In this document: piece by piece, positions 6,929 through 23,819 of the stretch
How the letters are laid out: every line of letters starts with the position of its first letter
How positions within the stretch are numbered: the first letter of the stretch is position 1
Assembly (NCBI GenBank): GCA_017795025.1
Contig: CP051243.1
Span: forward strand, 682,001-746,000
DNA length: 64,000 nt
Source: Flavobacteriales bacterium
GTDB lineage: Bacteria; Bacteroidota; Bacteroidia; Flavobacteriales; Schleiferiaceae
Direction: 5' to 3'
Notes under the pieces: generated by a model
The model's input: only the letters and a program-made list of their open reading frames with translations
Databases searched by the model: none
What the model was told of the DNA's origin: nothing
Position numbers and translations under genes: made by a program

Positions 6929-7390
6929 ATGCCCCTAACCAAGAACCCCCACCTTCGTTACCGCCTTTTAGATGCGATGTTACGTAATACCGGTAGGACC
7001 TACACTTTCAAAGAGCTTCTAGATTCCTTGAATGAAAGCTTGGTAGTGCGAGGGCAGAAGACTGTGAGCATCCGACAATTAAGGGCTGACCTTAATTATA
7101 TGCGCAGTGAGGCGGGTTTCTCTGCGCCTATTGAGGTGAAAAAAGGGTCAAACCCGCCCGTGTATCAATATGCTGTCTCGAAGTTTCAAATTGGCGATAA
7201 TCCCATGAACCCCCAAGAAGCCGCTCAATTACGGGACACCCTACAAATGCTAGAGCGCTTTGATGGAAGTACCTGTGCTGCATTTGCAGTTCAACCTATC
7301 CTTTTTGCAGACATTTTCGTTCTGAACTCAACTCCTAAACAAGCGTGCACTAAAAGTGCATGGGAGCCATCTAGATTTGTCCTATTGTAA
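6929..7390 (+). pseudogene. Truncated WYL-type transcription regulator
   Basis: Residues 1-112 align by eye with the N-terminus of the complete WYL regulator at 22,791-23,819. Both have a PxxKNxxxRYRxxD start, a winged-helix segment and DLxYMRSxxGFxAPI, and both reach LERFDG or FDRFDG. After ERFDGS the homology stops, and the remaining about 40 residues (Cys-rich, no WYL domain) look unrelated. It therefore keeps the DNA-binding half and lacks the ligand-sensing half. It could still bind DNA, but I read it as a remnant. It lies just upstream of the CRISPR operon. Confidence 0.65.
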
Positions 7391-7405
7391 ACACAAGACT
7401 AGTTT

Positions 7406-7711
7406 ATGCTCATTCTCGAGATTCTTTATTTTATGCTAGCCCTGATATGTAGCTCCTATATAATTGCTACGTGGCAAAATATTTTCAACCACCAGGGATT
7501 TATCCTCAACCATAGAAGGTATTTAGACAGGTATGGTATGTTCCATAAAGTAGGCTGTCTCTCCTTTAGGTCAAGTACTTCTCATAGTCATCCCCAACCT
7601 TTTGCAAGGAACACCTATCGGAAGGCGGTAAATAATGATAGTAATGAATTGGACGATTTTTATAAGGATAAGCAAGAACAATTAGGAGCAAAGCGAATAT
7701 ACCCCGCCTAA
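7406..7711 (+). CDS. Doubtful small membrane protein
   Basis: A 101-aa frame with one N-terminal hydrophobic segment (MLILEILYFMLALICSSYIIA) and a polar Ser/His/Asn-rich remainder. It starts 15 bases after the broken WYL gene and may be read-through debris rather than a gene. No family recognised. Confidence 0.25.
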   Translation: MLILEILYFMLALICSSYIIATWQNIFNHQGFILNHRRYLDRYGMFHKVGCLSFRSSTSHSHPQPFARNTYRKAVNNDSNELDDFYKDKQEQLGAKRIYPA

Positions 7712-8000
7712 CGATGTAAAAAGTTTAAGTCATTTTAACATTAGGCAAAGAAAGGGTAAAGGGCAGTATTAGTTTTTATGTTTAGACTTAGTCAAAGTTT
7801 TTTCATAGTGCTTAGTAGCTAATGTCTCAATAATCAGTTCCTTATGTATTTAAAAATGTTTCGTAAATTTAGGTACCAAATATGATTTAAACCAAGCCAA
7901 ACCTAAACCAACACTTTCGCTTCCCTTCCAAAAAATGCCAATTTTAATTTTTTGTACGCATAAGTCATTGTAGGCCTCATGCGGATAATGTTTTGCGCCA
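7712..8000 (+). promoter_or_regulatory. Upstream region of the type III-A operon
   Basis: This AT-rich spacer of about 290 bases must hold the promoter for cas6-csm6. I found no convincing TAnnTTTG element. CATGCGGAT at 7978-7986 repeats the motif clustered behind the HU-like gene. Confidence 0.4.
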
Positions 8001-8672
8001 ATGTCAGAAATAAAGTATTTACAATTAGTGTTTAAAAATGCCTTACAACCTTATGATATTCGGCATTTCCGGAAGGCCATCAGCAAAGTTGTTGGGGAAG
8101 AATCAGACCTATTTCATAATCATGGTGATTCGGGTTTCATCTACCGTTATCCACTAATTCAGTATAAAACCTTTCACAAGTGCGCTTCTATTATAGCCCT
8201 TAATGAAGGAACAGAGGTCATTCACTATTTATTCCAAAAAGGCTTGGACCAGGTTGAGTTTGCCCAATTTGAGCAAGCCTTAGAGATACAAACGATTAAT
8301 GCCAATAAATACAATATTCAGTTATGGCAAGATTTAATCGATTATCGCATCCGAAATTGGTTTGCACTAAACGAGGAAAACCACAAAGCCTATAATGATC
8401 TGGAGCTTTTAAAAGAAAAGATTGAATTCTTAGAGAAAACGCTAACGGCGAATTTACTAGGCTTTTTGACGGCTATGGATTATCAGGCTGAAGAACCGGT
8501 TAAGGTTGAAATAACAAAAATGCTAGGGGAACGCTTCGTCAAATTCAAAGAAATTAAGGTGCTCACCTTTGATCTCGAATTTAAATCAAATGTATCCATC
8601 CCATCGGCTGTAGGAATAGGTAAAGCAGCTTCAGTAGGGTTTGGTATCATCTCAAAGGTTAAAAGAATATGA
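8001..8672 (+). CDS. cas6: Cas6-family CRISPR RNA endonuclease
   Basis: 223 aa, first gene of the effector operon. The C-terminus carries a glycine-rich loop, GIGKAASVGFG, followed by a short strand (IISKVKRI), the hallmark of Cas6 and related RAMP ferredoxin folds. Length fits Cas6. It should cut the long array transcript inside each repeat to leave a repeat-derived 5' tag. The rest of the sequence is divergent, so the call rests on that loop and on position. The stop overlaps the cas10 start by four bases (ATGA), which implies translational coupling. Confidence 0.75.
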   Translation: MSEIKYLQLVFKNALQPYDIRHFRKAISKVVGEESDLFHNHGDSGFIYRYPLIQYKTFHKCASIIALNEGTEVIHYLFQKGLDQVEFAQFEQALEIQTINANKYNIQLWQDLIDYRIRNWFALNEENHKAYNDLELLKEKIEFLEKTLTANLLGFLTAMDYQAEEPVKVEITKMLGERFVKFKEIKVLTFDLEFKSNVSIPSAVGIGKAASVGFGIISKVKRI

Positions 8673-10744
8673 ATCATCAGGGATTAAAAATTGCGCTTCA
8701 AGAAACGCTTAAGATGCTCAATGGCTTACCTGTGGAGCCCTCGTCGGAGCTAAATCAAGAATGGCTAGGCAAAGCTATTGAAACGGCTTTCGGAATAAGT
8801 AGCTTTAATAAGCTTGGCAGTTTAGTGCCTTTGCCATCTATTTTTAGCAGTCTTAGCCTTAAAGAAAATGGATCCGACTTATTGTATCTTCCTGCTAGTC
8901 CCATTAAACTTGCGCTAGACCATCCGCAGGCTTTAAAGCCAGAGGTAAGGATAAAGCTCTCTGAAGTACTAGAAAGGGTGACTGAACTCGAGAGCTTTAG
9001 TCAGGCCCTAAATTATATTGATTACAGCTTAAGTAATGTCACTTTAGCAGGAATTAGCGAAGGGCAACCGGTTGGTCTTTCCAAACATATTAGGCTGTGT
9101 TTGGCAATTTATACCTGTTTATCCCAATCCCAAGGATTCTTGTTTATTGGGGGCGATTTATCGGGGGTACAATCCTATCTCTACAATGTTATTTCCACTG
9201 AAGCTTCAAAAAACTTAAAGGGCCGGTCATTTTATTTACAGTTGCTCACCGAAAATGTGCTTCATCTTTTACTAGAAGAATTAGGATTGAGCCGCACCCA
9301 ATTGATTTATAATTCGGGGGGTAGTTTCTATTTAATTGCACCTGAGAGCGCCGATGTGCTTGAAACCATTAACAAGATTAGGAATCGAATTCAGGTTCAA
9401 TTGTATAAAGAGCATCAAACCGATCTCTTCTTAGCTCTTGAAGCCGTATCATTCCCGGTGCAGGATTTGCAGGAAAGCGGCGTGTCCTCAAAAGTTTGGC
9501 AAGCTTTGGCAAAAAAATTAGCGAAGGCCAAATCCCAACGCTATGCTAATTTAATTGAATCGAAGTTTGAGACTGTTTTTGGAATTAAAGAAATTGCTTC
9601 TAATAGAATTGATGCCATCACCGGCGAGATCATTAATCCAGGTGATTCTTTTAGCGAACTAAAAAAGAAAGGTTCTGATACAGAAGCGCGCTTTATTCTA
9701 GCGAAGACTGAGGCACAGATTGGATTAGCTAAAAGCTTGAATCGCGCTAAATATTGGAACATTCAACCCTTTACCGACCATGCTAAGGAAGGCTTTTCTC
9801 GGCCGGACCTAGGTTTAACCAATATTTTTCAGAAGTCAACGGTAGGTAGAAATCTTAAGTTCAATGACCCTAATCCCGAGAATGAATGGTTCTTGTTTGG
9901 TGGGAATTCCTATCCACAAGATGAGGATGGGCATCCTATTACCTTGGACAAACTAGTTGAGACTAAAGGAGCCGATGGAATCGCGAGACTGGGAATTCTT
10001 CGAATGGATGTAGATAATCTCGGTATGCTCTTTAAGCAAGGACTGGGAGATAAGGCCTCATTTGCGGCCTTTTCGGAGCTCAGCTTTAGGCTTGATCAGT
10101 TCTTTAAGGGGCATTTAAACGTAATTCGAGACCGAAGCCAGCATCGCAAGGAAAGCACCTATATCATTTATTCCGGGGGGGATGATTTGTTTTTAGTTGG
10201 ACAGTGGGCGGAGTTACTTGCCTTTGCCGAAGAAATCCAACAGGAATTTAAGGCTTGGACGGCGGGTAATCCTGCATTGAGCATTAGTGGTGGACTAGCT
10301 TTAGTTAAGCCAAGCTATCCCATTTCTAAAGCAGCCGATCTTTCTGGGGAGTACGAGCAGAAGGCAAAATCTTTTACACACCCAATTACCGGAAAGCAAA
10401 AAGATGCCTTAACACTATTCGGCATTCCTTTGGCTTGGTCTGAGATGGATGAGGTTCGTAAATGGATGGCGTTTTGGAAGGAAGGTTTGACTGTAAAATC
10501 GCTCTCTCATTCCTTTTTATACCGGCTGTATCAATTTAGGGATCAGAAAAATAGTAATGGACCTGAACAGTTTTCATGGCAATGGAACGCTACTTATCTC
10601 TTAGCAAGACAGAAAAAGGATAAGCGTATTAAGCCCGAAGACTACGAGCAAATCTTAAGCCTAATCGTAAATGGTAAAGGCAATTATCGCGCGCTTGACC
10701 TAGCCTGTATTGGGGCTAGATGGGCCGAATTACTAATTCGTTAA
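8669..10744 (+). CDS. cas10: Cas10/Csm1, cyclic-oligoadenylate synthase subunit lacking HD
   Basis: 691 aa, the large subunit of the type III-A complex. The first palm domain shows GGDLSGVQSYLYNV (161-174). The second shows LGILRMDVDNLG (441-452) and the catalytic SGGDD (502-506), so conversion of ATP to cyclic oligoadenylate should work. No HD motif is present in the N-terminal region, which is short, so the target-activated ssDNase activity is probably missing. The spot where Csm1 usually has a CxxC zinc ribbon reads DAITGEIINPGD (315-326), without cysteines. The protein has very few cysteines in total. The signalling output must therefore rest on Csm6. Confidence 0.95.
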   Translation: MNHQGLKIALQETLKMLNGLPVEPSSELNQEWLGKAIETAFGISSFNKLGSLVPLPSIFSSLSLKENGSDLLYLPASPIKLALDHPQALKPEVRIKLSEVLERVTELESFSQALNYIDYSLSNVTLAGISEGQPVGLSKHIRLCLAIYTCLSQSQGFLFIGGDLSGVQSYLYNVISTEASKNLKGRSFYLQLLTENVLHLLLEELGLSRTQLIYNSGGSFYLIAPESADVLETINKIRNRIQVQLYKEHQTDLFLALEAVSFPVQDLQESGVSSKVWQALAKKLAKAKSQRYANLIESKFETVFGIKEIASNRIDAITGEIINPGDSFSELKKKGSDTEARFILAKTEAQIGLAKSLNRAKYWNIQPFTDHAKEGFSRPDLGLTNIFQKSTVGRNLKFNDPNPENEWFLFGGNSYPQDEDGHPITLDKLVETKGADGIARLGILRMDVDNLGMLFKQGLGDKASFAAFSELSFRLDQFFKGHLNVIRDRSQHRKESTYIIYSGGDDLFLVGQWAELLAFAEEIQQEFKAWTAGNPALSISGGLALVKPSYPISKAADLSGEYEQKAKSFTHPITGKQKDALTLFGIPLAWSEMDEVRKWMAFWKEGLTVKSLSHSFLYRLYQFRDQKNSNGPEQFSWQWNATYLLARQKKDKRIKPEDYEQILSLIVNGKGNYRALDLACIGARWAELLIR

Positions 10745-10764
10745 AACATTTTTAATCAATCATC

Positions 10765-11139
10765 ATGACAAAAATCGAAGTGAACTGGATCCGCGAAGGG
10801 ATCACACAAGAAACGGTGGATTGGGCACAGGAAACAGGTAAAAGACTAGCTGATGGCCATGACAGACTAAGCACTAGTCAGCTAAGAAAATTCTTTGGCG
10901 AACTCCGGCGAATTCAAGCCTTGGGCTATGAAAACGCTAAATCTGATTTTATCCTGTTACAGGCTAAACTGGCTTACACGGTAGCTCGCCAAGACCGCAG
11001 AAAATCAGGGAAAATAAAAGAATTCTCAGAAATAATTTCGGGTGGAATTCGCGAAGTGCATTCCAGCGAGGATTACAAAAACTTTATTGATGTGGTTGAG
11101 GCCTTAGTAGCTTATCATAAAATGTACGAAAACAGTTAA
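10765..11139 (+). CDS. csm2: Csm2 small subunit
   Basis: 124 aa, predicted all-helical. The sequence has the Csm2 pattern: LSTSQLRKFFGELRRIQ, followed by LLQAKLAYTVARQ and a C-terminal FIDVVEALVAYHKMYE. It forms the inner filament of the complex beside Csm3. It lies 20 bases after cas10 and 10 bases before csm3 in the same operon. Confidence 0.9.
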   Translation: MTKIEVNWIREGITQETVDWAQETGKRLADGHDRLSTSQLRKFFGELRRIQALGYENAKSDFILLQAKLAYTVARQDRRKSGKIKEFSEIISGGIREVHSSEDYKNFIDVVEALVAYHKMYENS

Positions 11140-11149
11140 AATATTTAAA

Positions 11150-11809
11150 ATGAGAAAGTTAAGTCATAAATTAATCATAGATGGTCAAATAAAACTGCTT
11201 ACCGGCATGCATATCGGAGGGAGTAAGGATAGCGTTGGTATAGGCGATGTAGATAGCCCAGTTATTCGGCAAACCCTAAATCAAGAGCCTTACATTCCAG
11301 GGAGCTCCTTAAAAGGGAAAATACGCTGTCTCTTGCAGCTGATGGATGGTGAAATGGACGAGCGTGCTCGTGAAGGAAGCCGTATTTGCACTCTTTTTGG
11401 CGCGATGGATGGTAAAAACAAGGAACCAGGAAATCCATCACGTTTAATCGTAAGGGATTCCTATCTCACCGAAGCTTCCAGTAAGCGATTATTAGAATCA
11501 GCTCATACCGATATGCCCTTTTCAGAGATTAAAACGGAGAACCGAATTTTAAGGGTGGAAGGTAAGGCAGAACATCCTAGGCAAATTGAGCGCGTACCTG
11601 CAGGTGTTTCCTTTGGATTAAGCCTTGTTCTCAACGTCTTTGAAGGTGACCAGGAAACGGATTTACTCGGTACCTTGAAAGCTGGTTTGAAAGCACTACA
11701 AGATGATTACATTGGTGGAAACGGCAGCCGGGGTTACGGACAATTGGAGGTTCATATTGATTGGAGCAAGGTTGAAACGCGCAATGCCGCCTATTACATG
11801 CAGTCATGA
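11150..11809 (+). CDS. csm3: Csm3 backbone RNase subunit (Cas7-like)
   Basis: 219 aa. The motif GIGDVDSPVIR (30-40) contains the catalytic aspartate (Asp35 aligns with the IDSPVIRD aspartate known to cut target RNA). YIPGSSLKGKIR and the glycine-rich GGNGSRGYGQLEV are standard RAMP elements. It should form the filament that holds crRNA and cut bound target RNA every six bases. It overlaps csm4 by four bases. Confidence 0.95.
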   Translation: MRKLSHKLIIDGQIKLLTGMHIGGSKDSVGIGDVDSPVIRQTLNQEPYIPGSSLKGKIRCLLQLMDGEMDERAREGSRICTLFGAMDGKNKEPGNPSRLIVRDSYLTEASSKRLLESAHTDMPFSEIKTENRILRVEGKAEHPRQIERVPAGVSFGLSLVLNVFEGDQETDLLGTLKAGLKALQDDYIGGNGSRGYGQLEVHIDWSKVETRNAAYYMQS

Positions 11810-12804
11810 AAACCAAGTTCCATCTTTTCGAATTGTTTTTCCCGCATGGCTTGCACCTAAGTCGTGGTCCCCAAAATACCGATCATAGTCATCCTTATTT
11901 GCACTCCGATGCCATCTTAGCTGCCTTGATGCAGGTTTACAGTCAATGGGGCTTGGACCCGGAAGACCTGAAGAGTATGGTTTTGAGTAGTGCCTTTCCC
12001 TTAGTTAAAGATGGGCAGAAAACCCACTATTTTTTTCCAAAAGTTTTCTTTCCAGAGGTAAAGGGCTTTGATGAGGAAAAGGGCTTTGCCAAGAAGCTTA
12101 AGAAAATAGCCTGGTTGGATTACGAATCTTTTGAAGCGCTTGCTAATGGTAAATTTCAATTTATGGAGACTGCATTAAAAGATTCCTATTATTCTAATGG
12201 CCCAAGGCCACTGATGCAGAGTAATATACGCTTGCGTACGCGAGTAGGTAGAGATCAGGAGGACACACGCCCTTATTATATTGATGAACTCAATTTTTCG
12301 GCCGAAAGTGGTTTATACTTCCTGTGTTATAATCTTGATGCCGCTCAATTAAAGCAATTGCGAACCGCTTTACGAATGCTCAAAGACTCTGGTATCGGAA
12401 CCGATCGCAGCGTAGGGAAAGGTAACTTTTATTTTACGGAGACTGATTTAGAATTGAATCTTCCAGATCAGGCGAATTACGCTTTAAACTTGGGTGTTTT
12501 CCTTCCCAACAACTTAGAAGAGTGGAAACAGTTAACCCAAACCGAAAACCATCGCTATGAACTCCTGCAGCGTGGAGGCTGGTTTGATGGGTCGAGCGCT
12601 TTTATAGGCCGCAGGAAAAATTCGGTTAACATGATTCGAGAGGGCGGATTATGGTCCAATCCACAAGGTAGTGGCTTATTGGTAAGGGGTCGTGTGGCTG
12701 ATTTAGCGCCTCAGAGTTTAATTAAAGAAGGGCTCGGTCACCCGGTTTACCGAAGTGGTAAAAGCTTATTCATTCCTTTAAATCTAGAACCCTATGAACT
12801 ATAA
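11806..12804 (+). CDS. csm4: Csm4 (Cas5-like) crRNA-tag binding subunit
   Basis: 332 aa. LHSDAILAALMQVY near residue 30 matches the HSD-LFSAL element of Csm4, and GIGTDRSVGKGNFYF matches its glycine-rich loop. It should hold the 5' tag of crRNA and contact Cas10. Start ATG overlaps the csm3 stop. It overlaps csm5 by 11 bases. Confidence 0.93.
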   Translation: MKTKFHLFELFFPHGLHLSRGPQNTDHSHPYLHSDAILAALMQVYSQWGLDPEDLKSMVLSSAFPLVKDGQKTHYFFPKVFFPEVKGFDEEKGFAKKLKKIAWLDYESFEALANGKFQFMETALKDSYYSNGPRPLMQSNIRLRTRVGRDQEDTRPYYIDELNFSAESGLYFLCYNLDAAQLKQLRTALRMLKDSGIGTDRSVGKGNFYFTETDLELNLPDQANYALNLGVFLPNNLEEWKQLTQTENHRYELLQRGGWFDGSSAFIGRRKNSVNMIREGGLWSNPQGSGLLVRGRVADLAPQSLIKEGLGHPVYRSGKSLFIPLNLEPYEL

Positions 12805-13936
12805 AGTAAGCTATCAAAGTTTGACTCCAATCCATGTTGGCACGGGTGAAGATTTACATTTGGGTATAGAATTCACGAAACACAGCCAAGGGGAAAATGA
12901 CTTCTTAGGTATCTGGGATATAAAGAAGCTTCAAGGGGCGATGCAGGATTCCCAATTTGATCGAATGATTCGCATTTTGGCTTCCGGCGAATCACCGGAG
13001 GATTATCTGAAAGAGATTATTCCAAGGAAGGAGTGGGGGGCCTTATTTAGTCGGAAAATGCAACTAGTAGATTCCTTGAAGCCTACTTTAAAGCCTCATA
13101 TTCATACCGGTTTGGGTAAGGTTTATTTACCAGGAAGTGCGCTTAAAGGTGCGATTATGACGGGTATTATGGCTAAAGAAGCCGAGAAGATTCCTCAAAC
13201 ACTTTTAGTAGGACTAAAAAGAAGGGAGCTGGAGCAGGTAATATGGCGGCAAACCGTCGGCGATAATATGTCGTATTCCCCAGGCCGGTTTTTAAAGGTT
13301 GGGGATGTTGATTTTAGCGGTTATCAAACACAAGCCTGGTTAGGCTCGGTCCTAAATCTTAACCACGAAAAACTATATGAGTGGAAAAAGGGTACTGATC
13401 AGATGATAGAGTGCATTCCTTATCTCGCAACAGCCGAGGGTAAGGTGGCCTTTGATCTCATCGCTTTGGAGACGGCTGAAAAGTATCCTGATAAACGTAA
13501 TAATCGTCATAAAGTGAAGCTAAGTACTTACCTTAATGATTTAGCTAAGTTCACCCAGGTCCTTAATCAGGGTCAATTATATTGGCTGGAGAAGGAATTA
13601 AAATTCATTAACAACTACAATGGCCAAAATAAATCAGAAGAGGATGCCTTGTTTCAATATGGTAATGATTTAAAAGAAATTATAAAAGGGATAAGCGAGC
13701 TAGGAAAAAACCAAGCAATTATTAGGGTTGGCGCAGGAAGTGGTTATAAATCCTTGAGTGGAAATCTCCTAGAACGCCTGGAGCAGGCAGGAGCTATTAG
13801 TACATCAGCCCATAGTCAAATGATTGAAGGATTAAGAGGTGCTAAGTATCGTAATATGCCCTTTCCAAAAACCCGTAAGGTATTTAAAGATGGGGTGGCT
13901 TGGGGTTTCTTAAAAATGACCTTCCATGAAAGCTAA
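12794..13936 (+). CDS. csm5: Csm5 RAMP subunit
   Basis: 380 aa. The N-terminus YQSLTPIHVGTGED and the motif VYLPGSALKGAIMTGI are typical of Csm5, which caps the filament at the crRNA 3' end and helps trim it. It overlaps csm4 and csm6 by 11 bases each, a tightly packed operon. Confidence 0.93.
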   Translation: MNYKVSYQSLTPIHVGTGEDLHLGIEFTKHSQGENDFLGIWDIKKLQGAMQDSQFDRMIRILASGESPEDYLKEIIPRKEWGALFSRKMQLVDSLKPTLKPHIHTGLGKVYLPGSALKGAIMTGIMAKEAEKIPQTLLVGLKRRELEQVIWRQTVGDNMSYSPGRFLKVGDVDFSGYQTQAWLGSVLNLNHEKLYEWKKGTDQMIECIPYLATAEGKVAFDLIALETAEKYPDKRNNRHKVKLSTYLNDLAKFTQVLNQGQLYWLEKELKFINNYNGQNKSEEDALFQYGNDLKEIIKGISELGKNQAIIRVGAGSGYKSLSGNLLERLEQAGAISTSAHSQMIEGLRGAKYRNMPFPKTRKVFKDGVAWGFLKMTFHES

Positions 13937-15386
13937 ACTGATTATCACCCTCGGAACGCGGGATTTGCAAATAAAGCCTGAGGCAGAAGCTAAATATAAA
14001 GGTGAAATTTTTAGGGATGCCACAGGCAGAGTAAACAATCAAATTCCGAAATACGCTAGGGAATTCGGTGCCTATCTTCTAGAGGTTCAGGAAGACATAC
14101 CTGATGAAGTGGATATCGATGATTTTAAGCTCCCGATGCTCAAAGCAGCATTGGAATACATAGGGCAAAAGGAATCAACATTTGACCTGGTATTTATCGC
14201 TACCAATCAAGAAAAGAATGAGGCTAATGTTCGATATTGGAAACAAGACAGCATTCATATAGCCACGTTCTTACAAAAATTGATTTCGGAGGCGGTGAAT
14301 GGCAATATTGAGGTCGTTTCCATTGGGGGTTCACACATTCAAGAAATGGGTGCAATCTATAACCAAATGCGCGATGAGCTCTTTTTAGATGAGGCTTCGC
14401 CTATATACCCCCAATCTGCTGAGCGCTTTTATGTAATGCCCCAGGGAGGAATAGATTCTATAAATACCAGTCTTTTACTTAACGGTATTGAGTTTTACCA
14501 CGAAGCTATCTTTTTAAGAAAATCTGAATCATCCGATAAGGCTGAAGAGCAAATATTTCCCTTACAGCATAAGCAAAGAATGCTAAAGAGCAATATAGAG
14601 CGACTCTTAGACTCCCATCAATTTTACGCAGTTTCCAAACTACTTCCGCAGGATTCCGATGCCTATAAACTAGCTAGTTTTGCTCATAGACGCTATATTT
14701 TAGACCACGAGGCTGCTTGGCAACTTTGGAGTGAAATTAATTCCAATAAGGATTTTTTAACGGAAAATGTTGAATTTAAAAAGGCCGTAGGACTTTCCAA
14801 TGATCGAAACCATGTTTTACATGCTAAGATTAAGGATATTCTGCTTTCCACAAAAGTGGACTATGAAAATGGAGATTATAGCGGGGCATTAATGAAGTTA
14901 TTTATCCTCCAAGAAAACTTCATGGACTATTTACTCCGGGATTTTTTACCACCACTGAGTGAAATATTTAATCCATACTTACCTAAGGAAGCTATTAATA
15001 AGGACTGGGAGCTCGAGATTAAAAGGATTAAAAGTCTCCTTGGTAAAAAAAACATCAAGGAGGTTTACCTTAAGAACCCTAGTCCTAATGCGTATAAGTC
15101 AATATGGAACGCTCTGGTTACAAAAGACTACATATCAGTTTCAAATAAGCAACATGATCTTGTAAATAACTGTTGGAAATTGCTTAATAAGCTGAAAGGA
15201 TTGAGAAATAAACTTACACACGGAGGTATAGGTGCTTCTAAATCGCTTTTAGACCAAACGGTGGTAAGCTGTTCAGTAAATATGAATAATATGGATGATC
15301 TTTTTAAGTCTTTGTCTAAGTTGTACGGAGTGCAAGGACAGGGGCATTTCGATCTTTTACGAAAAGAGATTCTAAGGAGTCTCTAG
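13926..15386 (+). CDS. csm6: Csm6, CARF-HEPN ribonuclease activated by cyclic oligoadenylate
   Basis: 486 aa. The N-terminal CARF half begins LIITLGTRDLQ (5-15), with FDLVFIATNQ (86-95), VVSIGGSHIQ (130-139) and MPQGGIDSINTSLL (171-184) as ligand-pocket strands. The C-terminal HEPN domain carries the R-x4-H motif RNKLTH (Arg427, His432). It should cut RNA non-specifically once Cas10 makes its second messenger. Last gene of the effector operon; 75 bases separate it from the next gene. Confidence 0.93.
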   Translation: MKAKLIITLGTRDLQIKPEAEAKYKGEIFRDATGRVNNQIPKYAREFGAYLLEVQEDIPDEVDIDDFKLPMLKAALEYIGQKESTFDLVFIATNQEKNEANVRYWKQDSIHIATFLQKLISEAVNGNIEVVSIGGSHIQEMGAIYNQMRDELFLDEASPIYPQSAERFYVMPQGGIDSINTSLLLNGIEFYHEAIFLRKSESSDKAEEQIFPLQHKQRMLKSNIERLLDSHQFYAVSKLLPQDSDAYKLASFAHRRYILDHEAAWQLWSEINSNKDFLTENVEFKKAVGLSNDRNHVLHAKIKDILLSTKVDYENGDYSGALMKLFILQENFMDYLLRDFLPPLSEIFNPYLPKEAINKDWELEIKRIKSLLGKKNIKEVYLKNPSPNAYKSIWNALVTKDYISVSNKQHDLVNNCWKLLNKLKGLRNKLTHGGIGASKSLLDQTVVSCSVNMNNMDDLFKSLSKLYGVQGQGHFDLLRKEILRSL

Positions 15387-15461: not shown

Positions 15462-15848
15462 ATGTCTGATTCCCTAACCGTTGGCCTTCAATACCGCAAA
15501 AACCCATTGAGTCTTACCGATGGTGGGGTAGTGGTTTCTATTGAGCGCGGCGACGGGTTTCGATTAGACTACCCCAACATTAAATATCCTCAGGCTTACG
15601 TCCGCAAAGTGGTCGCTAATCAGCTTGGACTAGACCTGGACGAAGTCCATCAATTAGCATATATGCCGGAGTACCACGACGAAATTAAAAAGGTGGTGCG
15701 CCGCATCTGGATTGATGACGAACTTTTATGGGAGCAAACTGATCAAGATATTCCTTGGTTGGAGCGCCGCAATGATAGGCTGCCTAGCCAAAGAATAACT
15801 GCTGCCCAGCGCAGAACGGCACTGGCGGCTGTAATGAGCGACTTATAA
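15462..15848 (+). CDS. Unknown 128-aa protein leading the adaptation operon
   Basis: No recognised family and no membrane segment. The N-terminal half is strand-like (SLTDGGVVVSIERGDGFRLDY); the rest is helical and charged (KKVVRRIWIDDELLW, QRITAAQRRTALAAVM). It lies 8 bases before the Pif1-like gene, so the two are almost certainly co-transcribed and, through overlaps, with cas1, CAPP and cas2. Its place suggests a partner of the helicase or of spacer capture. It might instead be an unrelated passenger. Confidence 0.7.
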   Translation: MSDSLTVGLQYRKNPLSLTDGGVVVSIERGDGFRLDYPNIKYPQAYVRKVVANQLGLDLDEVHQLAYMPEYHDEIKKVVRRIWIDDELLWEQTDQDIPWLERRNDRLPSQRITAAQRRTALAAVMSDL

Positions 15849-15856
15849 TTTACACC

Positions 15857-17620
15857 ATGCCGAACCTAGACCGAAATAACCAATTTGATCTTGCCTTTCG
15901 CTTTCTTAACGAAACGAATCGGTCTATTTTTCTAACCGGTAAAGCCGGTACGGGAAAAACCACCTTCTTGCGTAAAGCGGTGGCCGAGTCTGAAAAGGAG
16001 ATTGTGGTATTAGCCCCAACCGGAATAGCGGCTTTAAATGCTGGAGGCCAAACCTTACATTCTTTTTTCAGATTGCCTTTTCAACCTTTTCTTCTAACCG
16101 ATATGCGCTTTATGGCGCCTTTTCAGCAGCAGAAGGCTTATGGTTTTCGGGATAAGGAAAATATCTATTCATCTTTAAGTTATACCGCTAATCATCGCGA
16201 AGCCCTAAACAAAGTAGAGACCATTATTATTGATGAAATTAGCATGGTGCGAGCCGATATTTTGGATATGATTGATCGTATTCTTAGGGTTTATCGTGGT
16301 CGGATGCGGACTCCTTTTGGTGGCGTGCAAATGGTATTAATTGGTGACCCCTTCCAACTTCCTCCAGTGCTTAAAAAGGATGATCAAAAAATGCTTTCGG
16401 AGCTCTATCCTGATGGCACTGCTTTTTTTAATAGTTTCATTTTTAAACGAATGATGGATCAAAAGCATTTGTTGTCCATCGAGTTGAAACAGGTTTATCG
16501 TCAAAGTGATGCGCAATTAATCGCGCTCTTAAATCGCATTCGTGGAGGAGAGCATAATGCTGCCGATATGCAACACGTCAATGAGCGCCTCGTTAAGGTT
16601 CCGGAAGAAGAAAAGCTAGGTTTGGTAGAATTGGCCGCTTTAAACAGCCAAGCGGAAAAAACCAATCGTACTAATTTAGAAGCCTTAGATACTCCGCTAT
16701 ATAGCTATGAGGGCCGTCAAAGTGGGGATATAAAGATTAAGGATTTACCCTGCGAGGCGGTTTTGCATTTAAAAGTTGGAGCCCAAGTAGTATTTATTCG
16801 TAATCATGCTCGTGTCGAGTTTGTGAATGGTACGGTAGGGATCGTAAAAGAATTAGCTGAGGATAAAATTGTGGTTCAGATCAAAGAACGGGAAGTGGAC
16901 GTAGAACCTTATACCTGGGAGAATAATAAGTACAGTTGGAGCGAGAACGCCAAAAAGATTTATAAGGAATTAAAAGGTAGCTTCAGTCAATTCCCCCTCA
17001 AATTAGCCTGGGCGATTACAGTTCATAAAAGCCAGGGCTTAAGTCTAGATAAGGCTTTGCTTAACTTGGGTCAGTCTTTTACCTACGGACAGGTTTACGT
17101 AGCCTTAAGTCGTTGTAAAACTTGGGAAGGTCTTTATTTGAAAGCACCCTTACAAGCCCAACGCATTAAGACCGATCCCAAGGTGCTGCGATTTATGAGT
17201 ACCTTTCCTGATCAAGAATCTTTGATGAACTCCTATCTGCAGGCCAATGCCGAGTATTATTACCATTGGGCTTGGAGAAAAATGTTGGGCGGTGCTTGGC
17301 CTGAAGCCTTGGCTAATTTTAATAATGCCATTTCAGTTTATCCCTTGTGTTTAGCGGATTTTAAGCTAAAACGCGCATTTAGCATTTTCTGTAAACGTTA
17401 CGAAGCAGGCAAAATCAGTGGCGTAAACACCTCACAGGGGTCAAAGAAGCTGATGGAAGCTTGGTCCATTCTAGTGGCTTTTGAAGCTCGGGTTGATAAT
17501 TGCTCAGTTTTGGGGCTTTTAAGCGATAAATGGGCTAATTCACGATGGCAAGCCCCCGTAGGCTTCACGGATAAAGAATCCGAAGCTTTTTTAATCCTAG
17601 AAAGCTTATTCAAACCATGA
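15857..17620 (+). CDS. Pif1-like superfamily 1B DNA helicase
   Basis: 587 aa. Walker A GKAGTGKT (28-35), APTGIAALNAGGQTLHSFF (53-71), Walker B IIIDEISM (123-130), LIGDPFQLPPV (161-171), LKQVYRQSD (210-218) and the C-terminal VHKSQGLSL plus GQVYVALSR (389-419) are the complete Pif1/RecD2-type motif set. A C-terminal extension of about 120 residues contains a TPR-like stretch (WPEALANFNNAISVYPLCLADFKLKRAFSI). The stop overlaps the cas1 start by four bases (ATGA), so translation of the two is coupled. A role in unwinding DNA during spacer capture or gap filling is inferred from this coupling; Pif1 helicases are otherwise common in Bacteroidota. Confidence 0.9.
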   Translation: MPNLDRNNQFDLAFRFLNETNRSIFLTGKAGTGKTTFLRKAVAESEKEIVVLAPTGIAALNAGGQTLHSFFRLPFQPFLLTDMRFMAPFQQQKAYGFRDKENIYSSLSYTANHREALNKVETIIIDEISMVRADILDMIDRILRVYRGRMRTPFGGVQMVLIGDPFQLPPVLKKDDQKMLSELYPDGTAFFNSFIFKRMMDQKHLLSIELKQVYRQSDAQLIALLNRIRGGEHNAADMQHVNERLVKVPEEEKLGLVELAALNSQAEKTNRTNLEALDTPLYSYEGRQSGDIKIKDLPCEAVLHLKVGAQVVFIRNHARVEFVNGTVGIVKELAEDKIVVQIKEREVDVEPYTWENNKYSWSENAKKIYKELKGSFSQFPLKLAWAITVHKSQGLSLDKALLNLGQSFTYGQVYVALSRCKTWEGLYLKAPLQAQRIKTDPKVLRFMSTFPDQESLMNSYLQANAEYYYHWAWRKMLGGAWPEALANFNNAISVYPLCLADFKLKRAFSIFCKRYEAGKISGVNTSQGSKKLMEAWSILVAFEARVDNCSVLGLLSDKWANSRWQAPVGFTDKESEAFLILESLFKP

Positions 17621-18615
17621 ACCTGCATCTAAGCAAATATGGATCAAGCATTAAACTAGATAATGGTCAGTTTAAAGTTAGGACTAAGGAAAAGCTCGAG
17701 GTTCTTAACCCTAGTTTAGTGAAGCGGATTTATCTAAACAGCAGTGTTTCCTTAAGCACCGATGTGCTTTTTAAAGCAATTGAGATGGGCATACCGATTA
17801 TCTTAAAACAGCGGAATGGAAAGGTTGCTGGGCGCATGTGGAGTGCTAAATATGGATCCATCACTACATTAAGGCGTAAGCAATTACAGTTAAGTGAGGG
17901 GGAGGATGCTTTTCTTTTGATTAAGGATATTTTAAATCAGAAACTCCTCAATCAGCAACAATTGCTTTTAATCTTTGATCCTCAAGCGAAGGATGATCTT
18001 AGCTTTTTGGAAGGGCGTAGAGCCCATATCGAAAGGCAAAGGCGCAAATTGTTGGCCACAGACTTAAACAATTTAAAGGAGTTTAAAAAGAAGGTAATGG
18101 GCTATGAGGGTAGTGCCGGTAAAGCCTATTTTCAAACCATTAGTTACTTCCTACCCAAAATGTATCAGTTTACAGAAAGAGCGCAAAGGCCTGCCGGAGA
18201 TATGTTTAATACGAGTTTGAATTACTGTTATGGCATGCTCTACAGTTTAATTGAGGGTTACCTCATTGAAAGTGGATTAGACCCTTATACCGGACTTCTG
18301 CATCGCGATGATTACAACAAGCCTGTTTTTGTTTATGATATTATTGAGCGCTATCGAATATGGGCCGACCTGGTGGTCATACGTTTATGTAGGCAGTATA
18401 TTCTATTTGAAGACTTCTTTAGTAAAGATGGCCAAGCTTTACTCTTAAATGAATTTGGTCGCAAGATTATGGTTCATGCATTTAGTGAATATATGGAGGA
18501 GAAAATTGCCTTAGCCGGTAAGCAATTAAGCCGTGAAGGTCATATTCGCTCCTATATCCAAGCTTTAGCAGGGGCCATTGGAAATGATAAAATTGAATCA
18601 TTATGCTCTATTTAG
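17617..18615 (+). CDS. cas1: Cas1 integrase
   Basis: 332 aa. The metal ligands are all visible: Glu164 in GYEGSAGKAYF, His229 in GLLHRDDYNKP and the DIIERYR segment (Asp241, Glu244). The N-terminal beta-domain (MNLHLSKYGSSIKL, VSLSTDVLFKAIEMGIPI) is typical. It should insert new spacers at the leader end with Cas2. The gene overlaps the CAPP gene by 13 bases. No reverse transcriptase domain is fused to it. Confidence 0.96.
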   Translation: MNLHLSKYGSSIKLDNGQFKVRTKEKLEVLNPSLVKRIYLNSSVSLSTDVLFKAIEMGIPIILKQRNGKVAGRMWSAKYGSITTLRRKQLQLSEGEDAFLLIKDILNQKLLNQQQLLLIFDPQAKDDLSFLEGRRAHIERQRRKLLATDLNNLKEFKKKVMGYEGSAGKAYFQTISYFLPKMYQFTERAQRPAGDMFNTSLNYCYGMLYSLIEGYLIESGLDPYTGLLHRDDYNKPVFVYDIIERYRIWADLVVIRLCRQYILFEDFFSKDGQALLLNEFGRKIMVHAFSEYMEEKIALAGKQLSREGHIRSYIQALAGAIGNDKIESLCSI

Positions 18616-19619
18616 GTCGAAATATTCAATCCAAAGAAGTACTCAAGCCATTTAGCCTAGAGGAACTTGCACAATCCATTTTAAAGGACAGCTTAGGATT
18701 AACACCGCTCAGCAATCATTTAAGGGCTTTATTAAATATTGACAGAGGTATTTACATTCAAAAGAAAAAATCCTTAGCCTATTTCTGTATCAGTCAATTT
18801 AAAGGACATCAACGACTTACCGCTAACTTTAAATCGGTAGAGTATATAGTTCTGGATTTTGATGGGATAAGTCCCCAGCAAATCCCGGATTTCAGTAAGT
18901 TGATGACTCAGGATAAGCGCATCGTATTGTCTTTTATAAGTCCATCGGGGGAAGGTTTAAAAGTATTATTCAAATTAGACAAGCCTTTATACGATTCTAA
19001 GGCCTTTCATGATTTGGCCAAAGCCTTTGGTACAGCCTTTAGCCAGGAGTATGACCTAATTTCCTATTTCGATCAACAAACTTTGGATGTTACACGCGCG
19101 ACCTTTATCGTTCCAGATCCATCGGCTTATTATAATCCACAAGCTCAGCCCATAGAAATTGAGGACTATCGACATATTTGGGATTCGGGCTTATTTAATG
19201 CTTTAGAGGAAGAATCTGGGGAATCCCGATTGGCCGATGAAAATGGTGAACCGGTAGAAGAGGCTTATGCCAAAATTAAAACCCTTTTAAATCAGAAGAA
19301 GCCCCAAGTCCCCACACCAGATTTATCGGACTTTTGGCAGCGTTTTCAAGTTAAGCTTTCCGAAACTTTACATCCAGTAGAACTAGCGATTAGTGAAATT
19401 CGCGAAATACAGTTTGGCATCCAGGTTAAGGTTCAGCATAAAGCAGGAGCAATTGCAGAGGCAAATGTTTACTATGGTAAAAAAGGCTATTCTGTAGTAC
19501 CCTCCCAAAAGGGAAGTACCGACCAAGAGCTAAACAAACTATTGGAGCAGCTTATTTGGATGGTTATTAAAGATAATCGCTATAACATGGATGATCATGG
19601 AATTTTACGAAAGGTCTAA
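18603..19619 (+). CDS. CRISPR-associated primase-polymerase (CAPP-like, VirE-N/BT4734 AEP family)
   Basis: 338 aa. The archaeo-eukaryotic primase signature hhhDhD reads YIVLDFDG (Asp85, Asp87). It is followed by VLSFISPSGEGLKVLFKL (108-125) and LDVTRATFIVPDP (161-173), the conserved pattern of the BT4734/VirE-N AEP group. CAPP proteins of this type are reported to make and extend primers and to associate with Cas1-Cas2; here the gene sits between cas1 and cas2 and overlaps both. The C-terminal 130 residues have no domain I can name. The likely role is synthesis or repair of pre-spacer or gap DNA during adaptation, which is inference. Confidence 0.82.
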   Translation: MLYLGRNIQSKEVLKPFSLEELAQSILKDSLGLTPLSNHLRALLNIDRGIYIQKKKSLAYFCISQFKGHQRLTANFKSVEYIVLDFDGISPQQIPDFSKLMTQDKRIVLSFISPSGEGLKVLFKLDKPLYDSKAFHDLAKAFGTAFSQEYDLISYFDQQTLDVTRATFIVPDPSAYYNPQAQPIEIEDYRHIWDSGLFNALEEESGESRLADENGEPVEEAYAKIKTLLNQKKPQVPTPDLSDFWQRFQVKLSETLHPVELAISEIREIQFGIQVKVQHKAGAIAEANVYYGKKGYSVVPSQKGSTDQELNKLLEQLIWMVIKDNRYNMDDHGILRKV

Positions 19620-20049
19620 GCAATTAAAGGAAGTTGGTCTGAAGTGGTCAACCGACCGTGTGTTTAGAAGGGAAGATGAGAAGTTAGGTATTCATCATCT
19701 TATGGAAGCGATTTTAGGATTTATGGGACTTAAAGAGCAAAATTACCAGGGGCCCGTGTACTTGGGTATGTACGATATTCGAAGCGACAAAGTTCGTCGC
19801 TTGGTCGCTAAGTATATGGAGCGAAAAGGATTTCAAAGGATTCAAAAATCGGTTTATCTCTGCCGATTGCCCCCAAAGATTTATCGAGAAGTAGTTTCCG
19901 ATTTACGGGAAATGAACGAACTTTATGAGAATAAAGATAGCTTCATATTCATTCCTTTGAACTCCGATATTTTGGGCCGCAGTCATTTTATCGGTAAGGA
20001 CCTGGATATTAAAATGATCCAAAACAAGCCAGCAGCCCTTGTTCTTTGA
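19591..20049 (+). CDS. cas2: Cas2 with N-terminal extension
   Basis: 152 aa, against the usual 85-100. The Cas2 ferredoxin core starts at VYLGMYDIRSDKVRRLV (56-72), with Asp62 at the usual position and KGFQRIQKSVYLCRL (79-93) as the next strand pair. Before it lies a 55-residue helical extension (FYERSKQLKEVGLKW). The start ATG lies inside the end of the CAPP gene; internal Met38, Met45 and Met60 are alternatives, but starting at Met60 would truncate the first strand. It should form the central dimer of the Cas1-Cas2 integrase. Confidence 0.9.
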   Translation: MIMEFYERSKQLKEVGLKWSTDRVFRREDEKLGIHHLMEAILGFMGLKEQNYQGPVYLGMYDIRSDKVRRLVAKYMERKGFQRIQKSVYLCRLPPKIYREVVSDLREMNELYENKDSFIFIPLNSDILGRSHFIGKDLDIKMIQNKPAALVL

Positions 20050-20156: not shown

Positions 20157-22555
20157 GTCAGAGCAACCTTCCAACTCAAATAGGATTACGACCAATTGTA
20201 ACTCTATATTTCGGCATCTTATTCGGGGTCAGAGCAACCTTCCAACTCAAATAGGATTACGACCAGCCTAAGCACCGTTAACGAATCTAAAGGTTGTAGT
20301 CAGAGCAACCTTCCAACTCAAATAGGATTACGACAACTTTAAAAATCAGGGTGATAACGTTTAACTTTGTCAGAGCAACCTTCCAACTCAAATAGGATTA
20401 CGACCGTCTTCTAAAGAACTTTCGGTTAACTCGCTATCAGTCAGAGCAACCTTCCAACTCAAATAGGATTACGACCCACGTAAATCTTGCGTAGGAGCTG
20501 CTTTCATATGTCAGAGCAACCTTCCAACTCAAATAGGATTACGACAATCACTATCAATACTAGATAGTAATAAACGAGCTAGTCAGAGCAACCTTCCAAC
20601 TCAAATAGGATTACGACCTAATTTGTCTGCTCTCCTCATGAGAGACTTGTACGTCAGAGCAACCTTCCAACTCAAATAGGATTACGACTCTGATTGTATT
20701 TTGATAGAGAGTCTACCAAAGTAGTCAGAGCAACCTTCCAACTCAAATAGGATTACGACGCTTTTGCGTGCCCTTCGGACATTAGGTTAAACACGTCAGA
20801 GCAACCTTCCAACTCAAATAGGATTACGACTAAGGTTTCACCCTTATTAGGTGTCCACCCTTAATAGTCAGAGCAACCTTCCAACTCAAATAGGATTACG
20901 ACCACCGTATTGACGAGCAATCTGCTCAGCAAGCTTGTCAGAGCAACCTTCCAACTCAAATAGGATTACGACCTGCTGTCAGCACCTCAGGTAGATTATC
21001 ATTCTTAATGTCAGAGCAACCTTCCAACTCAAATAGGATTACGACTGAGTTTTCCAATTGCCTTCCTGATCATACACATCTGTCAGAGCAACCTTCCAAC
21101 TCAAATAGGATTACGACATTCATAGTAGTTACGGTTTGGTCTAAGCGAACACTCGTCAGAGCAACCTTCCAACTCAAATAGGATTACGACTGCTTAGCTT
21201 GATACAATCCACCTTGATACTCAATGTCAGAGCAACCTTCCAACTCAAATAGGATTACGACCGTTAGTGTTTGCACGGCCAACAGTTGATTTACTGTCAG
21301 AGCAACCTTCCAACTCAAATAGGATTACGACATAAGGTATTAAATTGAATATTGATAGCACCGGCTTTGTCAGAGCAACCTTCCAACTCAAATAGGATTA
21401 CGACTACTTGTGAAGCTCCCATCCGCGTAAAAACCCCTGTCAGAGCAACCTTCCAACTCAAATAGGATTACGACTCGATTTTACAAGGATAAATAGCATA
21501 ATCAAAGACAAGTCAGAGCAACCTTCCAACTCAAATAGGATTACGACCGTTGTAGCGTTGAAGCGAGCGTTGTTTTGAGTGTGTCAGAGCAACCTTCCAA
21601 CTCAAATAGGATTACGACCAAATTTAGAAATACTTGCATAATCTAAACTTTCCGTCAGAGCAACCTTCCAACTCAAATAGGATTACGACAATACCTCATC
21701 AGTAATATCACCACGATAGTATAAAGTCAGAGCAACCTTCCAACTCAAATAGGATTACGACACAAATCTTCTTTGTCTGCTGGTAGTTCCATGAATAAGT
21801 CAGAGCAACCTTCCAACTCAAATAGGATTACGACCGATTTAATCCTTTCATGTCGTTGTAGATTTTAGTTAGTCAGAGCAACCTTCCAACTCAAATAGGA
21901 TTACGACGTATGTAGCATCCACGATGGTTCTGCCTCGTCATGTCAGTGCGACCTTCCAACTCAAATAGGATTACGACACCCTTACAATTTCGTTAAAAGA
22001 CAATTTTGTTTTTGTCAGAGCGAACTTCCATCTCAAATAGGATTACGACCCGATAGCCCATGCAATTTACCATTGCTATCGTACCGTCAGAGCGAACTTC
22101 CAACTCAAATAGGATCACGACTAACGCGGCTTTGATTTGTTGGTATTCTTTAAGGGTGTCAGAGCGAACCTCCATCTCAAATGGGATTACGACAAAATAC
22201 ATTGGTAAGTACAGGCCGCAACATTTACGTCAGAGCGAACCTCCATATTAAATAGGATTACGACAATGGGAAACCGTTTTCTTTGATGTGTTTCTCCACC
22301 GTCAGAGCGAACCTCCCTCTCAAAAAGGATTACGACAAAGAAATATTTTCGTTATTACCTTCGCTTGCGTTTGTCAGGGTGAACTTCTATCTCAAATAGG
22401 ATTACGACACGTTGTTAATAGCAGCGATACGCTGGTTCATATCAGTCATAGCGACCCTCCATTTAAAATTGGATTAAGACTCAATTGGTCCTCTCAGGAA
22501 GGCTACACGGTTCTCTTTAGTCATAGCGACCCTCCATCTCAAATTGGATTTTTAC
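20157..22555 (+). CRISPR. CRISPR array, 34 repeats and 33 spacers
   Basis: The repeat is 36 bases, starting GTCAGAGCAACCTTCC and ending AAATAGGATTACGAC. Start-to-start distance is 70-75 bases, so spacers are mostly 34-37 bases. Repeats 1-25 (20,157-21,907) appear identical. Repeats 26-34 (from 21,942) all differ; all nine have G instead of A at position 9 and most have CCATCTCAAA in place of CCAACTCAAA. The last two (22,445 and 22,520) are heavily decayed. Transcription is likely on the plus strand, so the 8-base crRNA tag would be ATTACGAC. Spacer targets cannot be identified from the window alone. Confidence 0.97.
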
Positions 22556-22790: not shown

Positions 22791-23819
22791 CTATTCTTTT
22801 TGATATGCCTTTTGCATTTGGTCAATACGCCATTTTAACTTTTCCCGTAAACTTTGGGGTTTGAGCACTTCCAAAGCTTCGCCGAAAGCTAGTAATTGGT
22901 ATTCCAATTCGTAATTTGGAATCAGTTTATAACGGATTAAATAGCGCCCATCGGCTTGCCGTTGCGCTGCTTTCTGACTACCATGCAAAGGCTTGGTTTG
23001 CAGATAAGGAAGCAAATTAGCATTCACCAAAACTTGTATTTCTGTTACGGGATGATCTAGACGGCTTACTCCAATAATATCACTAAAGTAATCCTCCCAA
23101 TCTATACTCTTCTTGTGCTGCGAGGCACCATGGTCCTTTATAGCGGTAATACGATCTAGGGATAAATTCCAGGGCTTGGTCGTTTCCTTACCGTCTTGTT
23201 CCTCTAACCAGCCAAAAACAAACCAGCGGTTGTTGTATTCCTTCAGTAAGCAAGGATGAAAAAGAAAGCTGCGCGCTTCTTCTTGAAAGGGCTGATAATC
23301 GATTTTAAGTAAACGATCTTGTTCTATAAAACGAGCCAGCAGCCGGATGTGCTCCCTTCCGCTGTAGTCAATATTATCATCGAAGGCGATAATTTTCCGG
23401 TTGGTGCGTCGGTTTAATTTTAGCTTTTCTTCAATTCGGGTTACGGTATCGTGCAACCAATCAAATTGGGGGGCACCATCAAAGCGGTCGAAAATAGAAA
23501 TCATAGTCTCTAAGGCTTCTCGTTCCTGCTCGTTTAGCGGCGAGCGATTAATGCGAAAGTCAGGATCTTTGTAATGATAATACCGGATTTTATTCTTTAA
23601 ACGATAGGTAATAGGAGCGTCAAAGCCATCGATGCTCCGCATATATTTTAGGTCATTTTGCAGCGTACGTTCCGAAATGCCATCATGACTAGGATCTAGT
23701 TCCGCCAGTTCCTGGTCAATGGCGGCCATTAATTCCTTTTTACTCCAAGCGCGCGTGCGCTCCTGCAAGCAACGGTCAATGATACGATATCGGTAATAGG
23801 CATTTTTATTCTGAGGCAT
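22791..23819 (-). CDS. WYL-domain transcriptional regulator
   Basis: 342 aa. An N-terminal winged helix (RYRIIDRCLQE, SERTLQNDLKYMRS) is followed by a WYL domain. DRLLKIDYQPF opens it, and HPCLLKEYNNRWFVFGW is the family's conserved P-x4-EYxNRWYxxGW core. The last about 80 residues form the WCX-type extension (VTEIQVLVNANLLPYLQTKPLHGSQ). WYL proteins sense ligands, often nucleic acid, and regulate several CRISPR and defence loci. It is convergent with the CRISPR array and divergent from a small gene. The broken WYL gene on the far side of the cas genes is its closest relative in the window. Confidence 0.9.
   Translation of the reverse strand: MPQNKNAYYRYRIIDRCLQERTRAWSKKELMAAIDQELAELDPSHDGISERTLQNDLKYMRSIDGFDAPITYRLKNKIRYYHYKDPDFRINRSPLNEQEREALETMISIFDRFDGAPQFDWLHDTVTRIEEKLKLNRRTNRKIIAFDDNIDYSGREHIRLLARFIEQDRLLKIDYQPFQEEARSFLFHPCLLKEYNNRWFVFGWLEEQDGKETTKPWNLSLDRITAIKDHGASQHKKSIDWEDYFSDIIGVSRLDHPVTEIQVLVNANLLPYLQTKPLHGSQKAAQRQADGRYLIRYKLIPNYELEYQLLAFGEALEVLKPQSLREKLKWRIDQMQKAYQKE

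Follow-up and report, generated by a model that had tools for sequence, protein, structure and literature searches.

The CAPP_B adaptation operon and its locus

The window analysed here is a stretch of 64,000 nucleotides from a Flavobacteriales bacterium (contig CP051243.1, positions 682,001 to 746,000), and the system in question is a CRISPR-Cas locus in which a helicase gene directly precedes cas1, a gene for a CRISPR-associated primase-polymerase (CAPP) and cas2. A sequence-only reading of this DNA had described five genes, all on the + strand, coding for a protein of 128 amino acids (aa), a Pif1-like helicase, Cas1, CAPP and Cas2. The listing of open reading frames (ORFs), exact to the base, confirms this order and its spacing: 8 bases separate the 128-aa gene from pif1, and the overlaps amount to 4 bases between pif1 and cas1, 13 between cas1 and the CAPP gene, and 29 between the CAPP gene and cas2 (23 if cas2 starts at its second ATG). 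The identities given to Pif1, Cas1, CAPP and Cas2 hold as well, each family profile being passed over its cut-off. That reading was silent on two further parts of the locus, namely a cas6b-csm-csx1 block upstream (8001-15386), which extends the operon to a single run of 12 same-strand genes from cas6b to cas2, and a CRISPR array that begins 107 bases 3′ of cas2. The genome is one contig of 3.44 Mb, and a search of it found a single cas1.

The window CAPP passes NCBIfam NF040562 (CRISPR-associated primase-polymerase type B; cut-off 200 bits), and its gene sits between cas1 and cas2 within a type III locus. Its catalytic DxD aligns with the invariant D86/D88 of the CAPP of Algoriphagus kandeliae (L062). 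The window Cas1 scores 203.5 bits with Pfam (cut-off 22.3) and Cas2 38.2 bits with TIGR01573 (cut-off 24.5); with the active-site residues of Cas1 kept and the array adjacent, the two proteins are predicted to form a Cas1-Cas2 adaptation module. The Cas2 of operons with type B CAPP (CAPP_B) is long, 152-177 aa in 42 of the 43 found among the 47 loci surveyed below and 136 aa in the other. In an alignment of the window Cas2 with 36 others, picked from those of 145-185 aa, the Cas2 domain is preceded by about 50-60 additional N-terminal residues, which may be the interface with CAPP.

The helicase and its counterparts in CAPP_B operons

The operon helicase belongs to a short lineage of the Pif1 family and not to the RecD-like family of CAPP_B operons. 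With the Pfam PIF1 profile (PF05970) it scores 104.9 bits, four times the cut-off of 25.9; this profile is also passed by the RecD-like helicases of two surveyed loci, L062 (50.7 bits) and L110 (43.5 bits). Motifs I, II, signature plus III, IV, V and VI lie at positions 28, 126, 153, 213, 384 and 414, respectively, and the pattern of the Pif1 signature, which precedes motif III, occurs in none of the 23 full-length RecD-like proteins encoded in CAPP_B loci. A Pif1 hidden Markov model (HMM), which includes the window protein itself, gives 708 bits versus 62 bits for a RecD-like HMM. The score with the RecD2 profile TIGR01448 is 54.8 bits for a cut-off of 500, and that with the Pif1 2B domain (PF21530) is 23.1 bits for a cut-off of 23.9. 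The predicted structure (predicted local distance difference test, pLDDT, 83.3) superimposes on the Bacteroides Pif1 5ftb with a fold Z score of 45.1 and a root mean square deviation of 2.1 over 420 aligned residues, as compared to Z 21.2 for the best RecD2 match. Finally, in a tree of 68 rows, 61 of them Pif1 and 7 RecD-like, from which duplicate loci were removed and in which ORFs had to exceed 400 aa, the window Pif1 and the RecD-like helicases fall on opposite sides, with a Shimodaira-Hasegawa-like approximate likelihood ratio support of 100, and the window Pif1 is found near short Pif1s of 574-682 aa, along with two of 453-462 aa that have no tail. Pfam detects no domain in the C-terminal tail of the window Pif1, and the model is weak over residues 471-587 (block pLDDT 39-77). 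The nearest relative has a weak tetratricopeptide repeat (TPR) match in its tail (E 0.04-0.05), and such repeats can also be made out by eye in the alignment; a TPR tail on the window Pif1 is a lead only.

CAPP_A and CAPP_B were defined in 2021 (PMC8211822), CAPP_B being described there as residing mostly in type III operons and almost exclusively in Bacteroidetes; CAPP_B operons with a "RecD-like" helicase are described as well. To place the window among such operons, we relied on two collections. The first comprises 395 genomes of the phylum, three of which encode a CAPP that passes NF040562, that of A. kandeliae scoring best. A second collection, with a single genome per species for 84,980 species, was scanned with a three-row CAPP_B alignment and two peptide patterns and yielded 57 loci. 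Of these, 49 were taken as CAPP_B-like by E-value (L071-L119, E 6e-30 or better), L120-L127 being kept outside the counts, and 47 CAPP_B-cas1 loci remain once L081 and L092, with no cas1 on the contig, are set aside (L071 duplicates L062, and L090 duplicates L063). The window CAPP alone returned no matches in this collection, so the survey is not exhaustive; many of its contigs are short, and little weight attaches to a gene missing near a contig end.

A RecD-like helicase was found within 6 kb in 28 of the 47 loci (full-length in 23). Within 3 kb upstream of cas1 and on the same strand, such an ORF is present in 24 loci (19 full-length), and in 14 of the 47 it lies within 100 bases of cas1 or overlaps it. 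The unit of helicase, primase-polymerase and integrase suggested by the sequence-only reading is thus a recurrent one, in its RecD-like form. Two further genes recur: csx20 within 6 kb upstream (21 of 47 loci, 14 of which have a RecD-like gene upstream too) and a gene for a TPR protein with an S1/cold-shock domain within 6 kb (21 of 47, three of them on scores below 150 bits). PADLOC names this last protein PDC-M16B in L062 (14246-15853), and its best match in L076, L079, L083 and L091 is "TPR fused to cold shock-like domain". For the RecD-like helicase the best PADLOC match is PDC-M16A, listed there as a candidate defence protein, in all six scanned (L062:10170-11582, L073, L085, L099, L110 and L117), and PDC-M16A matches in genomes may partly be CRISPR adaptation genes. 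The overlapping gene order is not universal, since the CAPP_B gene runs against cas2 in L102, L103, L105 and L107 and, in two of these (L103 and L105), against cas1 as well. In the csm-type CAPP_B locus L078, a fusion of a CARF-like domain (Cas_NE0113) with an adenosine deaminase (7160-8998) lies directly upstream of cas1.

Pif1 beside cas1 was found in the window genome only, within what was searched. No ORF of the 57 loci, of L129 and L130 or of four plasmid loci scores higher with the Pif1 than with the RecD-like profile (E 1e-5); these four plasmid neighbourhoods, out of 87 records, were selected by a similar Cas1, and CAPP_B is annotated in two of them. Pif1 proteins at E 1e-60 or better occur in 91 of the 395 phylum genomes (best three candidates per genome scored). 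Among the collected loci (best 30 per search), a Pif1 lies within 3 kb of cas1 only in the window's own copies, and for the remaining phylum Pif1s the contig coordinates were compared by eye with the Cas1 matches listed. A Cas1 like that of the window (E 1e-45) is present in 3 of 395 genomes of the order: the window genome, G007, which has cas1-CAPP-cas2 with a PriA-like ORF (by eye) upstream, and G008, which has cas1-cas2 and no CAPP in the stretch read. The literature searched, which covers few subscription journals, contains no paper on Pif1 with cas1, and the word "Pif1" does not occur in the text of PMC8211822, whose supplementary lists may hold a Pif1-annotated gene. The remark of the sequence-only reading that a Pif1 helicase coupled to cas1 is less described does not hold as worded, a RecD-like helicase in a CAPP_B operon having been published; the Pif1 form itself was found nowhere else within what was searched.

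The type III-A arm, the array and the 128-aa gene

The locus is assigned by profile to type III-A, the Csm1/Cas10, Csm2 and Csm4 profiles being over cut-off (Table 1). In Cas10 the GGDD motif is kept, a motif scan found no HD dipeptide, and the profile match begins at position 91 of 753; judging from these features, it is likely a signalling-only Cas10. The array has 30 repeats by pattern (34 copies in a second count) and 29 spacers, all different. We took the cas2 side as the leader end because the 25 identical repeats are located there and variant repeats at the high-coordinate end. The spacers gave no convincing match in phages (E 0.2 or more), and none of the four of 29 whose core letters were searched exactly in viral contigs was found there. 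Just past the array lies a gene for a WYL-domain regulator (22791-23819, - strand); WYL-like regulators also occur near further CAPP_B loci, annotated in L170 and recognized by eye in L087, L106, L109, L114 and L115.

Table 1. Genes and array of the CRISPR-Cas locus, with positions in the window
Feature	Coordinates	Strand	Basis
cas6b (CRISPR RNA processing)	8001..8672	+	Pfam Cas6b_N and Cas6b_C over cut-off
csm1/cas10	8669..10744	+	NCBIfam TIGR02578 422.5 bits, cut-off 170; GGDD at residue 503
csm2	10765..11139	+	Pfam PF03750 over cut-off
csm3 (RAMP)	11150..11809	+	Pfam RAMPs over cut-off; csm3 name assigned by position
csm4	11806..12804	+	TIGR01903 172.8 bits, cut-off 55
csm5 (probable)	12794..13936	+	RAMPs over cut-off; TIGR01899 35.3 bits, just below cut-off 38.3
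Csx1 / CARF-HEPN effector	13926..15386	+	PADLOC Csx1 E 5e-35; no Pfam or NCBIfam family over cut-off
128-aa orphan gene	15462..15848	+	Coding by codon usage; occupies the Csx20 place of related operons
Pif1-family helicase, short lineage, 587 aa	15857..17620	+	Pfam PIF1, motifs, signature, fold, tree
cas1, 332 aa	17617..18615	+	Pfam and NCBIfam over cut-off; E164, H229 and D241 present
CAPP_B primase-polymerase, 338 aa	18603..19619	+	NF040562 244.6 bits; DxD motif D85/D87
cas2, 152 aa, ~55-aa N-terminal extension	19591..20049	+	TIGR01573 over cut-off, domain from residue 57
CRISPR array	20157..22264	+	36-nt repeat, spacers 34-37 nt

The 128-aa ORF is very probably a real gene, as its codon usage indicates. 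Its codon usage score is 0.111 in its own frame and negative in the other five; in the neighbouring cas genes the score is 0.098 for csm2 and 0.139-0.195 for the other ten. Its guanine plus cytosine content is 49% as compared to 37-45% in the neighbours. No relatives of the protein were found in Pfam, NCBIfam, PADLOC, PHROGs, PDB sequences, plasmids or phages, and within the phylum the search covered the 88 genomes of its own family and the collected loci. Two weak matches in its own family (E 0.001-0.002) look by eye MnmA-like and SRPBCC-like and were judged to be due to chance, and the single-sequence fold model is unusable (pLDDT 45.5). In related operons, the small gene upstream of the helicase is Csx20 by PADLOC in both cases scanned; that of L062 scores 25.1 with the NCBIfam Csx20 model, below the cut-off of 70. 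Csx20, a ring nuclease acting on cyclic tetra-adenylate according to PMC12409355, was considered for the window gene as well and rejected: an HMM built from 20 Csx20-like proteins gives -1.3 bits, and PADLOC gives none. For the 128-aa gene, which lies between csx1 and pif1 in the Csx20 place of relatives, a partnership with the cyclic oligoadenylate (cOA) signalling arm is more likely than one with the adaptation arm.

Elsewhere in the window, interspersed repeat families of about 23-127 nt occupy 40392-42771 and 53614-54333, several of them common to both places, and a 157-nt exact direct repeat is present at 58956-59112 and 59188-59344, 232 apart.

Origin of the helicase, competing explanations and known systems

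How could a Pif1 have reached this position? That it was recently copied from the Pif1 of the host was considered and rejected: the host paralogue (G000:C1:1637732-1639009), which carries an HTH_40 tail, clusters with six Pif1s of the same genus and groups with the long Pif1s, outside the short ones. Each of the six same-genus genomes encodes a single Pif1 at E 1e-60, in an open frame of 725-757 aa, and none has such a Cas1 at E 1e-20 or the 128-aa gene. Across the seven genomes, the extra Pif1 and the 128-aa gene thus go together with this cas1, in presence as in absence, as would be expected if the whole locus was gained or lost in one piece. Relatives retaining the 128-aa and Pif1 genes without CRISPR, the case that the sequence-only reading had named as speaking against an adaptation unit, were not encountered among the six, none of which keeps the 128-aa gene or a second Pif1. 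Short Pif1s of 40-46% identity exist in the same family, with no cas match in the stretches read (G008, G012 and G027), and the plasmid collection contains, in six records from Bacteroidales (one of 1.77 Mb), Pif1s 40-42% identical to that of the window, two of them annotated as tetratricopeptide repeat proteins. The Cas1 tree comprises 48 rows: 45 of the 47 loci, those with cas1 ORFs below 220 aa having been dropped, together with L129, L130 and the window. The nearest Cas1 in it, that of L110 (41%), adjoins a RecD-like helicase.

Taken together, these data describe a type III-A locus with a CAPP_B adaptation operon in which a Pif1 has probably replaced the usual RecD-like helicase. Such a swap of motors in this lineage is the simplest reading of the sequences: the nearest Cas1 adjoins a RecD-like helicase, and Pif1 stands in the RecD-like place. 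The operon type, the presence of a helicase in it and the mechanism put forward by the sequence-only reading are already known; new are the helicase family, Pif1, and an orphan gene where Csx20 would be expected, both in one genome.

Several observations weigh against an exchange. Both trees are quick ones with no bootstrap and with long branches: the window Pif1, whose exact place is tentative, sits on a branch of 1.33 changes per column and the window Cas1 on one of 2.3, which makes the placement behind the word exchange uncertain. L106, whose Cas1 is the second-nearest, has no RecD-like helicase. In the class as a whole such a helicase is not required, since among the 31 loci with at least 2.5 kb of upstream sequence it is present within 6 kb in 21 and not in 10 (L129 and L130, with less than 2.5 kb upstream, were scored as unknown). 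Its presence follows the Cas1 tree weakly, with 13 changes versus a shuffled mean of 16.0. The pairing of Pif1 and cas1, seen in one genome, carries no conservation signal; occurrence in this genome only, the other case that the sequence-only reading had named as speaking against an adaptation unit, is what the searches found within their scope. A single occurrence counts against a conserved Pif1-cas1 module, and not against a helicase-cas1 module with an exchangeable motor. As for the activity of the locus, the lack of protospacers among the phages and viral contigs searched is likewise unfavourable.

The locus L094 has no RecD-like gene. Between csx20 and cas1 it contains three others, coding for an Hsp70-like protein, a UvrD-type helicase of 374 aa that passes Pfam UvrD-helicase and UvrD_C and lies two genes upstream of cas1, and a 630-aa protein. 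L099, with an almost identical Cas1, has a RecD-like gene. L094 may represent a second change of motor; alternatively, the three genes may be an unrelated insert.

Pif1 and RecD-type enzymes are superfamily 1B motors, both moving 5′ to 3′. In the proposed mechanism, Pif1 would dock on Cas1, by analogy with the RecD-like helicase of the published CAPP_B system, and as a 5′-3′ motor it would expose single strands at breaks or forks of invader DNA, or open the integration intermediate. CAPP could then prime and extend on the exposed strands, producing duplex prespacers, or fill the repeat gaps, and Cas1-Cas2 would integrate the product at the cas2-side end of the array. Such roles, which the sequence-only reading had suggested as well, correspond to those proposed for CAPP in the text of PMC8211822, namely to synthesize prespacers and to fill gaps by displacement synthesis. 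There, DbCAPP of a Dysgonamonadaceae bacterium is credited with primase and polymerase activity, CAPP primes on short single strands, and the end of synthesis is ascribed by the authors probably to missing helicase activity. As described in PMC6212769, in naive adaptation of E. coli the nuclease activity of RecBCD is dispensable, its helicase activity may be important, and 5′-tailed DNA promotes acquisition.

It is unlikely, on balance, that Pif1 is a passenger, i.e., that a gene from a lineage also found on mobile elements landed upstream of cas1 and has no part in adaptation. The occurrence of the pair in one genome, the relatives with no cas match nearby or in plasmid-collection records, and the ten loci lacking a RecD-like helicase would all agree with such an event. 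Against a passenger speak the 4-base overlap of pif1 with cas1 within a run of 12 co-directional genes, its position in the place of the RecD-like gene of relatives and the retention of its helicase motifs. A role in interference, in which Pif1 would clear R-loops or G-quadruplexes or unwind target DNA for the Csm complex and would merely be co-expressed with cas1, appears improbable. The location of pif1 between the csx1/128-aa pair and cas1 in one run fits this proposal, and a Cas10 with no HD dipeptide could profit from another DNA-acting partner; on the other hand, pif1 overlaps cas1 and no csm gene, and in the published CAPP_B operon it is Cas1 with which the helicase interacts, a weak point, given that effector subunits are not among the two-hybrid constructs listed in the text of that paper. 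Finally, it is very improbable that the operon is a relic, with adaptation genes in decay and a neutral helicase, as the long Cas1 and Pif1 branches and the missing protospacers might suggest, given the open frames, the intact catalytic residues of Cas1, CAPP and Pif1, the 25 identical repeats on the cas2 side, the 29 different spacers and the restriction of variant repeats to the far end.

A broader proposal can be made tentatively: CAPP_B operons may possess a Cas1-docked motor slot that takes a RecD-like enzyme in most loci with a helicase, a Pif1 in the window and perhaps a UvrD-type enzyme in L094, adaptation needing a motor tied to Cas1 and no particular family of it, and the 128-aa protein may be a new cOA-degrading or cOA-binding protein, unrelated to Csx20, in the Csx20 slot. 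As far as we found, the case for a dedicated helicase in adaptation is based on a yeast two-hybrid result, and a swap of helicase family in the same slot amounts to a natural built-in experiment. Should binding to Cas1 and support of acquisition be common to Pif1 and the RecD-like enzyme, it is a motor, and not RecD-specific biology, that would be required, and the rare Pif1 variant could show which feature of the motor matters. The recurrent CAPP_B neighbours (the RecD-like gene, Csx20 and the TPR-S1/cold-shock-domain protein) provide a parts list for reconstitution.

Among known systems, the CAPP_A operon of Marinitoga piezophila (CAPP-TPR, cas1, cas2 and Ago) resembles the window in combining a primase-polymerase with cas1-cas2, and a physical complex is reported for it; it differs in the class of CAPP, in its Argonaute partner and in that no helicase partner is reported, as far as the source consulted goes. 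The Pif1 of Bacteroides (PDB 5ftb, 5fhd-5fhg) shares with the window protein 39% identity over 420 residues and the full motif set, whereas the solved construct stops where the C-terminal tail of about 130 residues of the window Pif1 starts; we know of no cas context for it. The A. kandeliae locus (L062/L071) has the same order as the window, i.e., small gene, helicase, cas1, CAPP_B and cas2, but there the small gene is Csx20, the helicase is PDC-M16A, and the TPR-S1/cold-shock-domain protein (PDC-M16B) lies 3′ of cas2, where the window has its array. A close published parallel in layout is the CAPP_B operon of the Dysgonamonadaceae bacterium (DbCAPP, DbCas1, DbCas2 and DbRecD), likewise of type III and from Bacteroidota, with the DbCAPP gene between those of DbCas1 and DbCas2 and a helicase near cas1; according to the text of PMC8211822, DbCas1 interacts in yeast two-hybrid assays with both DbCAPP and the RecD-like helicase. 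This helicase, known to us by its description, is called RecD-like, and the RecD-like helicases of the surveyed CAPP_B loci belong to a family other than that of the window Pif1.

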